Shown: piece after piece, positions 416 to 34,511 of the stretch
Layout: the number at the start of each line of letters is the position of its first letter
How positions within the stretch are numbered: position 1 is the stretch's first letter
From: Butyrivibrio sp.
GTDB taxonomy: Bacteria > Bacillota > Clostridia > Lachnospirales > Lachnospiraceae
Direction: 5' to 3'
DNA length: 34,511 nucleotides
Assembly: GCA_024694565.1 (NCBI GenBank)
Contig: JAILJR010000198.1
Span: forward strand, 1-34,511
Notes under the pieces: model-generated
Told to the model about the DNA's origin: nothing
What the model saw: the letters and a program-made list of their open reading frames with translations, nothing else
Databases searched by the model: none
Made by a program: the position numbers and the translations under genes

Positions 416-439
416 CTTTATGGCATTAAATATTTTAAT

Positions 440-475
440 CTCAACATCATATTATGAGTCGCCCGACAAAAGCTC
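440..475. repeat. Short copy of the dispersed GAGTCGCCCGAC repeat
   Basis: Positions 456-475 read GAGTCGCCCGACAAAAGCTC, identical to 34283-34302 and, inverted, to 34469-34488 in the large foldback element at the other end of the window. The base before (T) also matches, and after one difference the next bases (CCA) match again. The adjacent 12-mer CTCAACATCATA at 440-451 also occurs in the foldback arm (34486-34497), but here its orientation relative to the core is flipped. The copy lies just beyond the stop codon of the lipoprotein gene and before that gene's terminator, so it would be part of the mRNA 3' end. Confidence 0.8.
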
Positions 476-481
476 ACCATA

Positions 482-1462
482 TTATTCCAAAGCATATGTT
501 GTTGTTGATCCATTTCTGGTTACGACCATCCCAAGATTCTGTATGTTCGTAGCTTCACTTGAGCTGATCTGTGTCAGCACCACAACACTCTGGTGAGCTC
601 TTGACTCAATATTTCCTGAATAAGATGCAAGATCATTTGGCAGGAATGTAACTGATGAATACCCAATATTCTTGCCATTCAGAATAATCTGGAACATCAG
701 GTTCATCGGAATAAAGTTTACTGACCTGTCCCTGTCAGAACCATTGTAAAGATCAAACCTCAGTACAAGCAGCTTTTTGCCCTTATCTGCATTTACAACA
801 TAGCTCTTTGAGCTCTCAGGATAGGTACTTGATACCATATACCCCTGGTAGGACAAAAAGATATCATCAACAACTTCTTTTGACTCTTCAGAAGACAAAA
901 CTATAGCATTTTTATCTGATGCTGTACCTTCTTTTTCGGAGCTGTCACTTGCGGTTTCTTTTTCTTTCTCCTGCACCTTCTCCGGAGCAGCTTCTGATGA
1001 TGAGGAAAGGGCTGCAGCATCCGCAGTGTCAGTTGAAGCGGCTGTCGAAGCTGCATCCGAAGTTTCAGATGAAGAGGAGGTCGCTGCTTCATCCAAAGAA
1101 GCCATATCACCCGATGCATCCGTAACTTCTATTGTGTCATCTAAGGTTTCTACAGTATCTCCTGCCACATCAGTCTGTTCTTCAATCTCTGGTTCTGCCG
1201 GTTCCGGAGTTTCCACAACCTGCTCTTGTGAAATGCCGGTAGTTCCTTCCTCTTTTTTACGCTGCTTTTGGAGCTGGGCAGCATCGACATAAATAAGTCT
1301 CTCCTGCCCGTTATTTGAGTATTTCATCAATACACCGGCAGCATATTCTATAGTATGATTGTATTCATCCTCTGTCATGGAAGGAAGGCCTCCCCCACAG
1401 GCAGTGAGAAATGCCGCTACTAATATCGCAAGTACTAATGCCGGATACTTTTTTACATACAT
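482..1462 (-). CDS. Secreted lipoprotein with DUF4352-like C-terminal domain
   Basis: 326 residues. The N terminus is a lipoprotein signal: MYVKKYP, a hydrophobic stretch, then the lipobox LTAC with the lipidated cysteine at residue 22. Residues about 75-200 are a low-complexity Ser/Thr/Ala/Glu linker. Residues about 200-326 form a compact domain with alternating strands (KLLVLRFDLYNGSDRDRSVNF ... SVVVLTQISSS) that resembles the immunoglobulin-like DUF4352 family seen in many Gram-positive lipoproteins; this family call is from general resemblance. The start is supported by an AGGGGG box at the right distance upstream. Function is unknown; it should sit on the outer face of the membrane. It has its own candidate promoter and a strong terminator, so it is probably monocistronic. 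Confidence 0.8.
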   Translation of the reverse strand: MYVKKYPALVLAILVAAFLTACGGGLPSMTEDEYNHTIEYAAGVLMKYSNNGQERLIYVDAAQLQKQRKKEEGTTGISQEQVVETPEPAEPEIEEQTDVAGDTVETLDDTIEVTDASGDMASLDEAATSSSSETSDAASTAASTDTADAAALSSSSEAAPEKVQEKEKETASDSSEKEGTASDKNAIVLSSEESKEVVDDIFLSYQGYMVSSTYPESSKSYVVNADKGKKLLVLRFDLYNGSDRDRSVNFIPMNLMFQIILNGKNIGYSSVTFLPNDLASYSGNIESRAHQSVVVLTQISSSEATNIQNLGMVVTRNGSTTTYALE

Positions 1463-31938: not shown

Positions 31939-33090
31939 ATGATATCATTTCTGACTATGTCAGTTACAGCGATTACCAATGCAATAATATATGTACTGAA
32001 AGCTTTCTTTTCTTTAGTTTTATGGTTCGTAAAATTTCTCTTAAGAGGTATAAAAATCTGCTATTCTTTACTGCCTCTTACCACGCTTGCCTTTGTGGTA
32101 CTTATTTTTGTTGATGTGTTCTTGATCGTCACAAAGCAAAACCCATTCCCGGAAGAAATTATTACTCTAAGAGCCGCAGAACGAAGTACTGCCATGATGG
32201 ATTCGCTTCGGCAGTGGTGGATAATGGAGGTTTATTCCTATAAAGGAAATGCTTCATATTATCTCTTGCTCTTTATTTCAGTCATGATGTTTTTGCCTGT
32301 TATGACTGTTTTTCTGTCCATTTCTGTTTTTCTGACCTTTGGCAGGCTTCTGTTTTTTGCACTTATTGCTGACGGTGCTTTGTATATCATACTCACTTTT
32401 CTCGGAAAGCCTTTTTTTGTGCAGGCTCTTGACCGGTACTACAGGCTCTTCCCGGATGCCGGAATAAAGCATGAAGAAAAAAACTACGCAAGGCTTCTTA
32501 AAATGCGAAACAGAGAGCTTCAAAATGACCTGAGACGGGCTGATTTTTACAGAGATTCAGATTTCTATTCATCGGATGATGAACGGTACAGAGAAAATGA
32601 TTACGTAGAATATGTAGAAGAATATGATGAGGAAGAATTTGATGAGGAATTTGATGAAGCCTATGGTGAAGATGACGAGTTCTATGAGGATTATGAATAT
32701 GAAGAAGACGGATATGATGTAGATAAATATGAAGCTGATGAAGAAGACAATGTTGAAATAAACGCTGATATGTTTGCAAAAAGAAAGGCTCCCGACACAA
32801 CTCACGGCTTTGATCAGAGACAATCTGAGCAGCAATACAAGGATACGTACCGGAAAGAGAAAGACAACTCGCAGTTCGATCAGCAAAATAAAACAGGTTC
32901 AGGCTCTGCACCTAAAGGAAGTTCAGGAAGCTTTGACTTTTTTGCCGGCTGCAGCAGCAGGGAATCCGTAGACAAAAAATACAAATCACTGGTCAAGCTC
33001 TACCATCCTGATAACATGGACGGCGATACCGCCGCCCTTCAGGAGATCAATGTACAGTACGCCAAAGCTAAAAAGCAATTTGAAACTTAA
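31939..33090 (+). CDS. Membrane-anchored J-domain protein
   Basis: 383 residues, the only plus-strand gene. About four N-terminal membrane helices (for example near 13-33, 43-63 and 105-150) precede a long, acidic, Tyr-rich segment (about 195-275, with EYVEEYDEEEFDEEFDEAYG). A charged spacer follows, then a C-terminal J-domain (about 330-383) with helix II KKYKSLVKLYHPDN, including the HPD tripeptide that activates DnaK, and helix III QEINVQYAKAKKQ. It would recruit DnaK to the membrane. GAGGAG precedes the ATG. The stop codon overlaps that of alr on the other strand. Clients are unknown. Confidence 0.85.
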   Translation: MISFLTMSVTAITNAIIYVLKAFFSLVLWFVKFLLRGIKICYSLLPLTTLAFVVLIFVDVFLIVTKQNPFPEEIITLRAAERSTAMMDSLRQWWIMEVYSYKGNASYYLLLFISVMMFLPVMTVFLSISVFLTFGRLLFFALIADGALYIILTFLGKPFFVQALDRYYRLFPDAGIKHEEKNYARLLKMRNRELQNDLRRADFYRDSDFYSSDDERYRENDYVEYVEEYDEEEFDEEFDEAYGEDDEFYEDYEYEEDGYDVDKYEADEEDNVEINADMFAKRKAPDTTHGFDQRQSEQQYKDTYRKEKDNSQFDQQNKTGSGSAPKGSSGSFDFFAGCSSRESVDKKYKSLVKLYHPDNMDGDTAALQEINVQYAKAKKQFET

Positions 33091-34253
33091 GTATAACAAC
33101 GTGGTACTCTTTTACTGATGTCACAGGTAAGCTCATAGTTAAAGCGGCCGCTTAATTCACCGAGAAATTCCGCGGTAATCTCTTCGCCCGAGGACGAGTC
33201 CTTTCCAAGAAGAATGACGCTGTCCCCTTCCTTGACATCAGGGATATCAGTTACATCCACCATGAACTGGTCCATGCAGACTCTTCCAAGAATTTTTGCT
33301 CTTCTTCCATGAATTAATACATAGCCTTTGTTGGAAAGACTTCTTGGATATCCGTCACCGTAGCCGACAGGTATCGTCGCTACCTTTGTAGGCTCTTTTG
33401 TCACAAAGGTTCCGCCATAGCTTACGGGTGTCCCTTCGGGAACAGTCTTGAGCATGACGATGTGACTTATCAGCTCCATCGCAGGCTTTAAATCTATTAT
33501 ATCCTTTGGAACTTCATCGGATGGCCACATTCCATACATCGTGACACCGGCCCTCACCATGTCCATGGAGGACTCAGGAATTGCAATGATGCTTGCGCTG
33601 TTCGCGCAGTGCTTTATTGCAATATGTAAGCCCGTGTTTTCCTCCAGCTTATCAAGAAAGCACTTAAAGATTTCCTCCCTCTGTCTTGCATTGGTCAGAT
33701 CACTCTCGTCAGCTCTTGCAAAATGAGTAAATGCCCCCTCTACAGAGATTCCCTCCATACCGGTTAATGCCTTTACAAAATCAATTCCTGCTTCATCAGG
33801 AGTTATTCCGATCCTGCTCATTCCTGTGTCGACTGCAATATGAACCGGTGCTGAACCTGTAAGCTCTCCTTTTTCTATGAGCCTTCTTGCACAGGCATCC
33901 AGCTCTTTTGCCATATCAAGACGAAATACCGCCGGTCTTATTCCCTCTTTAAGCATTCTCTCATATGCATAAGGAAATGTGTAGCCAAGAATGAGGATGG
34001 GCTTTTTAATACCGGCATCCCTGAGTTCGAAGGCTTCTTCAGCCGTTGCCGTCGCATATCCCCAGATATAATCAAGCTTCTCCAGCTCATGTCCGATATC
34101 CACTGCCCCATGCCCATAGGCATCGGTTTTTATAACAGCCATGATCTTAGCCCCCGCAGGAATATTCTTTCTCATAGCCTCAAGATTGTATTTTATGGCA
34201 TCCAGATTGATCCTCGCCACCACTCTGGAAAACCTGTTATTCGCATTATCCAT
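33087..34253 (-). CDS. alr: Alanine racemase
   Basis: 388 residues. The PLP lysine is Lys42 in AVIKTDAYGHGA; the catalytic tyrosine of the partner subunit is in AGVTMYGMWPS. MSRIGITPDE, FTHFARADESD and VATIPVGYGDGYPRSLSNKGYVLI are characteristic, with GRVCMDQFMVDVTDI in the C-terminal beta domain. It converts L- to D-alanine for peptidoglycan. The ATG at 34253 is preceded by AGGGGGAAG, which lies inside the left arm of the foldback repeat. The gene is convergent with the J-domain gene; their stop codons overlap in CTTAAG. Confidence 0.96.
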   Translation of the reverse strand: MDNANNRFSRVVARINLDAIKYNLEAMRKNIPAGAKIMAVIKTDAYGHGAVDIGHELEKLDYIWGYATATAEEAFELRDAGIKKPILILGYTFPYAYERMLKEGIRPAVFRLDMAKELDACARRLIEKGELTGSAPVHIAVDTGMSRIGITPDEAGIDFVKALTGMEGISVEGAFTHFARADESDLTNARQREEIFKCFLDKLEENTGLHIAIKHCANSASIIAIPESSMDMVRAGVTMYGMWPSDEVPKDIIDLKPAMELISHIVMLKTVPEGTPVSYGGTFVTKEPTKVATIPVGYGDGYPRSLSNKGYVLIHGRRAKILGRVCMDQFMVDVTDIPDVKEGDSVILLGKDSSSGEEITAEFLGELSGRFNYELTCDISKRVPRCYT

Positions 34254-34259
34254 TTTCTA

Positions 34260-34330
34260 CTTCCCCCTGATTGTATGATGTTGAGTCGCCCGACAAAAGC
34301 TCGCCAGTCCGGCCCCGGCTGTGCATATTG
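34260..34330. repeat. Left arm of a 71-bp perfect inverted repeat
   Basis: This arm is exactly complementary to 34441-34511. It starts with CTTCCCCCTGATTGTATGAT and contains the core GAGTCGCCCGACAAAAGCTC (34283-34302), then a GC-rich stretch GGCCCCGGC. With one mismatch the pairing extends to 34334/34437. The outer end carries the alr ribosome binding site, so the arm is also the 5' leader of alr. Confidence 0.97.
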
Positions 34331-34361
34331 CACAGGAGGCTGAGAGGCCCTATGAGCTCGT

Positions 34362-34398
34362 CGGTACTTAGGCACCGTATTTTGGTGCCTTAGTACCG
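34362..34398. repeat. Nested inverted repeat inside the foldback element
   Basis: CGGTACTTAGGCACC (34362-34376) and GGTGCCTTAGTACCG (34384-34398) form a 15-bp stem with one central mismatch and a 7-base loop (GTATTTT). It is nearly at the centre of the larger inverted repeat. No T-run follows on either strand, so it is not an intrinsic terminator. Confidence 0.9.
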
Positions 34399-34440
34399 CT
34401 ACGAAGCGAAAGGAGCGAAAGCGTGCCCGAAGAGATTGTA

Positions 34441-34511
34441 CAATATGCACAGCCGGGGCCGGACTGGCGAGCTTTTGTCGGGCGACTCAACATCATACAA
34501 TCAGGGGGAAG
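34441..34511. repeat. Right arm of the 71-bp inverted repeat (window edge)
   Basis: Exact complement of 34260-34330, ending at the last base of the window. It ends with AATCAGGGGGAAG reading plus, the same purine-rich box that serves alr on the minus strand. If a plus-strand gene begins just beyond the edge, this arm would be its leader; that cannot be seen here. Confidence 0.95.

Follow-up and report, generated by a model that had tools for sequence, protein, structure and literature searches.

An inverted repeat in front of alr

The window analyzed here, 34,511 nucleotides long, is one complete contig (C48) out of the 249 contigs of a 3.47-Mb Butyrivibrio assembly that is 82% complete. At its right edge, which is the contig end, a long inverted repeat stands in front of the alanine racemase gene alr (33087..34253, minus strand, recognized by Pfam PF01168 and PF00842), raising the question of what this structure is and how it came to lie there. 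The inverted arms, 34260-34334 and 34437-34511, are 75 nt long, 99% complementary and separated by a spacer of 102 nt. Reading inward, the outer 71 bp are perfect, as a preliminary description of the sequence had reported, and 34331 is the first position to mismatch. The second inverted repeat noted there at the centre is present as well (34363-34376 and 34384-34397); by our own reading it measures 14 bp and not 15. Three terminator-like sites were detected in 34100-34511, compared to 0.3 in shuffled sequences, and two of them are located within the arms. No promoter-like site was found in the same interval.

The inverted repeat contains a high-copy, probably mobile element

The 252 bp were compared to the own genome with BLAST, scoring the best 40 of 223 first-look candidates, which yielded at least 102 matches at no fewer than 41 places of strong and two of weaker, partial similarity. 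The commonest edges were query positions 23 and 230, corresponding to window positions 34282 and 34489 and defining a repeat of 208 bp with the ends TGAG...CTCA, termed E here (34282..34489, plus strand). Its terminal inverted repeats, assigned by inverted-repeat detection and scoring of arm types, are a left arm (34282..34335) and a right arm (34436..34489, both plus strand). The arm had initially been equated with the alr leader. This holds for the outer 22 bp, but about 53 bp of each arm belong to the repeat family. The 208 nt fold with -155.6 kcal/mol (z = -18.8), a value that none of 200 shuffled sequences equals.

A covariance model of the central part of E (see below) finds at least 142 matches in the own genome. 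Flanks were scored for 39 complete copies from this genome; 28 core matches that are cut by a contig end or have unrecognized termini, among them the window copy, were set aside. Identical direct flanks of at least 5 bp are present in 19 of the 39 copies (eleven with 5 bp, seven with 6 bp and one with 9 bp), two copies show an identity of 4 bp and the other 18 one of 0-2 bp. Randomly paired flanks reach 5 bp or more in 2.2% of cases. The 19 duplicated flanks all begin with T and 17 of them end with A, showing that the duplicated targets are varied T...A pentamers. Because flank duplications occur in 19 of 39 copies compared to 2.2% by chance, we read E as a MITE-like mobile element; like bacterial MITEs it is short, present in high copy number, bounded by terminal inverted repeats and associated with target-site duplications. 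A MITE-like foldback element had been one of the preliminary interpretations, together with the expectation that a genome search would retrieve intact copies with common edges and target duplications. The search of the own genome bore this out, with many copies that share their commonest edges and with flank duplications mostly of 5-6 bp.

The core of E is a conserved folded structure

At the apex of the element lies a core of about 88 nt (approximately 34345..34432, plus strand), delimited by the span shared by matches in the genus, by the covariance model and by covariation. It folds as a three-way junction, carries a GNRA loop and shows strong compensatory change. An alignment of 23 cores from the genus contains 25 pairs, 14 of which have compensatory changes; the covariance model was derived from it and matches the window at 34327-34452 with 142.5 bits. 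A second alignment was built ignoring structure and comprises 39 sequences, namely the window and 38 of 56 model matches, excluding second copies per locus, partial, insertion-bearing and out-of-family matches and a small number of other rows. De novo, 24 pairs were obtained, with double changes in 22. With the structure derived from this same alignment, and favored by that derivation, 95.7% of the cells pair, and the covariation score is 0.586 versus 0.170 in shuffled alignments, none of 500 of which reached it; sliding the partner columns by 1-3 lowers the pairing to 22.5-45.7%.

The long central hairpin (34363..34397, plus strand) has double changes in 15 of its 17 helix pairs in the 39-sequence alignment. 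The small hairpin (34415..34422, plus strand) closes with the tetraloop GAAA in the window and with GNRA in 37 of the 39 sequences, the exceptions being AAAA and AAGA. In the genus set 22 of 23 small loops are GNRA, one of them read with an extra closing pair. At paired columns G-U was counted 19 times versus 6 times for A-C (own count, loop-closing column omitted). The GNRA loop and the excess of G-U over A-C point to the plus strand as the folded one. As far as the sequences tell, this is compatible with RNA and single-stranded DNA alike and does not decide between them. On the opposite strand the model gives a weak match (34319-34435, minus strand, 27.7 bits), indicating that the core is itself nearly palindromic. 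Rfam gave no match up to an E-value of 5 in 33000-34511 and no core match at gathering score in 20 further loci, so that the core of these regions corresponds to no Rfam family.

Distribution and genomic setting of the core

DNA similarity detects the core in 34 of 79 genomes of the genus, the own genome included, and the covariance model in 159 of 396 genomes of the family, representing 138 of 317 genera. In a phylum sample 5 of 398 genomes had matches; four are members of the family and one, with three matches, lies outside (G797). Copy numbers differ strongly between genomes. Eight hand-chosen genomes, one of them known to be without a match, had at least 142 (own genome), at least 138, 41, 16, 16, 7, 5 and 0 matches when up to 150 of the best candidates were scored in each. 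Phages and plasmids yielded no match by blastn, and viral contigs none to one strict pattern. Three genomes of the genus carry the same element together with the same downstream gene end (L077, L078 and L079, compared by eye), and some copies thus appear to have been inherited in place.

The orientation of the core was tallied for the 128 of 162 copies with callable neighbors, using rough ORF calls. At positions between tandem genes 47 cores point with and 42 against the genes; a further 27 copies lie between convergent and 12 between divergent genes. By the same rough ORF calls, 28 of the 162 copies overlap an ORF of at least 80 aa. Genome G245 has 14 cores with and 19 against the GC skew, 8 of 41 being excluded as borderline (own count). 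The skew of this genome flips its sign more than twice, so that its map is not that of a simple two-arm chromosome, and no clear strand bias relative to GC skew was seen in it. With no clear bias in either gene orientation or skew, the core is unlike a cis-regulator of one sense. Most likely its benefit goes to the element itself, either because a protein binds there or because the fold renders read-through transcripts tolerable. A TwoAYGGAY RNA (two loci) or a T-box leader (one locus) neighbors the element at a distance of no more than about 400 bp (L099, L108 and L111).

Different arms surround the same core

A second arm type, R2, with the termini TGATGTTGAGGTCAAAAG, is found around the same core. 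The 39 complete copies consist of 23 with two E arms, 11 with two R2 arms and 5 E/R2 hybrids, of which one has a 5-bp duplication, one a 4-bp duplication and three a flank identity of 0-2 bp. Allowing up to two mismatches, the own genome contains 73 R2 and 177 E termini, while reversed control patterns were not found at all. At least two further arm types were seen in 20 additional loci of this genome: one shares the tip TGATG and the CAAAAG box with E and R2, and another starts with TACAATTCAGT. The arms of the subfamilies are dissimilar in sequence, yet each pairs with its own partner arm. For arms of 45 nt from 52 copies of other genomes, a set with some near-duplicates, the mean pairing energy is -38.9 kcal/mol versus -14.6 kcal/mol between different copies, and 46 of the 52 lie past the 5th percentile of the between-copy null. 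The arm pairing and the further arm types therefore argue that in these elements, as judged from sequence, it is the middle that stays constant and the arms that are replaced, the opposite of what ordinary MITEs show. There are also short palindromes that have E termini but lack the core, and these too are bordered by direct flanks (L170, L169 and L125, by eye); such core-less forms may be deletions in place.

Element ends often face each other at a fixed distance. Of 101 element ends inspected, 14 face an end of another element at a spacing of 5 bp (12 cases) or 6 bp (2 cases), and every one of these 14 has a partner with the other arm type (L054, a weak terminus match, among them). Only three other neighbors lie within 60 bp, at 3, 24 and 42 bp. 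Locus L003 contains three copies of one 5-bp sequence: the first precedes E, the second separates it from R2 and the third follows R2. The simplest reading of the abutting ends would be that a single pentamer was used for insertion repeatedly, and their spacing of exactly 5-6 bp provides a testable rule of target choice. The window itself holds the remnant of such a junction at 433..484 (plus strand), which by sequence reading and termini matches consists of an R2 end, TATTA, a 25-bp stub of an E arm and again TATTA.

Further variants were observed in other genomes. G245 contains a size class of 311-314 bp (L174-L177 and L186) in which an additional multi-hairpin segment of roughly 107 nt is inserted into the core. 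Its arms (L178-L181 and others) end with AGGGGCTGTAAAAAA, a terminus pattern with 82 hits versus 11 control hits, and A and T runs are often found alongside. Because of these arm ends and flanking runs, the short derivatives of this genome look like bidirectional transcription terminators. In G182 whole elements form tandem arrays with units of 187 and 178 bp (L182 and L183).

No transposase or other autonomous partner was found in the examined regions between terminus pairs, for which 100 of the 177 E termini were listed in this 82% complete genome. These regions encode a peptidase M15, a leucine-rich protein, a zeta-toxin-like domain and an esterase/GH43 protein. In L121 (94-1263), facing R2 termini 1.17 kb apart enclose the gene for the D-alanyl-D-alanine carboxypeptidase-like peptidase M15, which is perhaps a passenger.

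The alr locus and the mirrored 22 bp

The outermost 22 bp of the inverted repeat are the alr leader on the left (34260-34281) and its mirror image on the right (34490..34511). None of the 39 other complete copies mirrors more than 3 bp of its flank, and the mean run is 1.1 bp versus 1.2 bp in random pairs. When the first 49 bp of both arms are compared, all 49 positions agree in the window copy versus 39-46 in the 23 other complete E copies. Furthermore, the left arm of the window is a mixture of left and right type: its diagnostic score is 0, compared to -4 to -2 for 33 left arms and -2 to 4 for 35 right arms. Since the mirror lies at a contig end, has no match in 39 copies and comes with perfectly agreeing arms and a mixed left arm, the last 22 bases of the window are probably an assembly foldback. 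Gene conversion instead of assembly could also have made the arm perfect and mixed the left arm. Ten contigs of the own genome besides the window start or stop within an E copy or at most 3 bases from one. Copies of E fragment assemblies, and false palindromes such as the one reported for the window can result.

In all 29 relatives fetched, out of 74 with an alr match, nnrD/E immediately precedes alr in the same orientation, with a gap of -2 to 108 bp; no core was found between the two genes in any of the 29. In the own genome nnrD lies on another contig (C93), where it is followed by an E copy with the flank TACAA. Beside the window copy, towards alr and six bases beyond the TGAG end, stands TTGTA (34271..34275, plus strand), which reads TACAA on the other strand and is probably the 5-bp target duplication. 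The position of nnrD beside an E copy and the same pentamer on the alr side suggest that a copy of E was probably inserted between nnrD and alr. The far side of the E copy on C93 carries a different sequence, with a flank identity of only 0-2 bp, and the order was therefore presumably broken by the assembler or by recombination between E copies.

This arrangement bears on two proposals of the preliminary description. A duplicated leader serving two divergent genes is rejected because nnrD/E and alr share a strand in all 29 relatives fetched and because the mirror occurs only at the contig end; the second ribosome binding site box pointing out of the window is, with the mirror unique to this end, probably not real DNA here. 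The palindromic assembly artefact considered as a counter-explanation probably does apply to the outermost 22 bp, but not to element E.

Explanations for the element and its copy at alr

Taken together, we consider it likely, with a probability of about 0.72, that E is a non-autonomous MITE-like transposon with a conserved folded core, that one copy was inserted between nnrD and alr, and that the last 22 bp are an assembly foldback. The copy number, fixed edges, inverted termini, duplications, core-less relatives and covarying core can be read from the sequences themselves. In the proposed course of events, a transposase acting in trans would recognize the tips, several arm types having TGA... 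and CAAAAG in common, and staggered cuts would duplicate a T...A target of 5-6 bp. The core at the apex would adopt the three-way junction with the GNRA loop on one defined strand, either of RNA or of single-stranded DNA, and would be retained since it is helpful to the element. It might bind a host or transposon protein or shape read-through transcripts such that insertions are tolerated. Recombination at the common core would swap arms between subfamilies. Finally, a copy would have inserted between nnrD and alr, and the assembly would have folded the alr leader back over the last 22 bp.

That the core is instead a host regulatory or structural RNA, its repeats being copies kept by selection and not mainly a selfish element, is improbable given the missing orientation bias (47 with versus 42 against tandem genes), the range from 0 to at least 142 copies across eight genomes and the flank duplications. 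Such an RNA would account for the strong covariation and the GNRA loop, for the same element at the same gene in three genomes (L077-L079, by eye), for some copies that immediately precede a start codon and point the same way (by eye) and for the TwoAYGGAY or T-box RNAs near 3 of 20 loci. Movement as a single-stranded DNA hairpin, of the REP/IS200 or integron attC-like kind with the fold read by a single-strand recombinase, would agree with the strand-specific fold and with the excess of G-T (19) over A-C (6) at paired columns; loops of the GNRA type are also stable when made of DNA. We regard it as hardly likely, as the 5-6-bp flank duplications indicate staggered double-strand cuts and G245 shows no clear GC-skew strand bias (14 with, 19 against, 8 excluded), whereas REP/IS200-type elements make no target duplication and are strand-biased.

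Equally far-fetched is a real mirror of the alr leader, in which arms arise by inverted duplication of neighboring DNA (snap-back synthesis) and the window shows a fresh case. Subfamily arms that are unrelated but pairing would be expected from this process and the window copy does mirror 22 bp of unique flank, but only this contig-end copy shows a mirror (3 bp at most in 39 others), its left arm mixes both arm types, and the expected neighbor nnrD is found elsewhere, beside the matching pentamer. Almost no weight is given to an invertible segment acting as a phase switch before alr: long inverted arms do flank an asymmetric center, but the same element occurs at many places with varied neighbors and 34100-34511 contains no promoter-like site. 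A more far-reaching reading of E deserves tentative consideration, although we think it rather unlikely. Here it would be the core of about 88 nt that is truly selfish, as a functional module of folded RNA, or of single-stranded DNA, distributed family-wide; its disposable arms would be exchanged with other elements or renewed by inverted duplication of neighboring DNA, and its movement would therefore not be tied to one transposase.

Relation to known repeats and significance

REP/REPIN palindromes are much shorter than E and rely on single-strand chemistry, which is not known to duplicate the target. Like E they are abundant intergenic hairpins (PMC2817692). The repeats bcr1-bcr18 of the Bacillus cereus group are, in the portions of the reports at hand, interspersed, MITE-like and 100-400 bp long; bcr1 reaches up to 130 copies with a mean of 39 per strain, and bcr10 and bcr18 have conserved secondary structures and are transcribed (PMC6542083, PMC3446304). 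They resemble E in being interspersed, high in copy number and MITE-like, and no clear autonomous partner is named for them in these portions. However, bcr1 is described there from one species group and with a TTTAT motif, while E targets varied T...A pentamers, and a family-wide core in unrelated arms does not appear in these portions, setting bcr apart from E by description (PMC6542083, PMC3446304). With such varied targets E shows no association with TTTAT, and with one matching genome outside its own family in the phylum sample it does not follow the B. cereus group.

BOX of Streptococcus pneumoniae, as far as the available text goes, is modular like E, has termini and target duplications, is tightly folded if transcribed and favors gaps between convergent genes, with a size of 67-637 bp (PMC3049150). 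In BOX the ends boxA and boxC are constant and the middle boxB may be absent or repeated, whereas E keeps its middle and varies its ends; BOX is also set apart by its description mainly from S. pneumoniae and S. mitis (PMC3049150). Correia/NEMIS, ERIC and similar MITEs share inverted termini and target duplications with E and, in the excerpts of the review at hand, are under 200 bp long and give long stem-loop transcripts (PMC2229807). Correia/NEMIS and ERIC usually have TA ends and are A+T-rich, and no structured core common to unrelated arms is mentioned for them in these excerpts (PMC2229807). As described in the available parts of these sources, neither bcr nor BOX nor the reviewed MITEs have one family-conserved core inside unrelated arms. 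No published description of the E repeat was found in the open-licence PMC literature, outside of which many journals lie.

The combination of a conserved middle with exchangeable arms is unusual, as is the abutment of two arm types at exactly 5-6 bp. What defines a MITE is its ends, but in these elements it is the middle that persists, in 138 of the 317 genera sampled, and the ends that are replaced. That so widely distributed a covarying structure finds no match in Rfam points to an unrecognized RNA- or DNA-structure function in a major family of gut and rumen bacteria.
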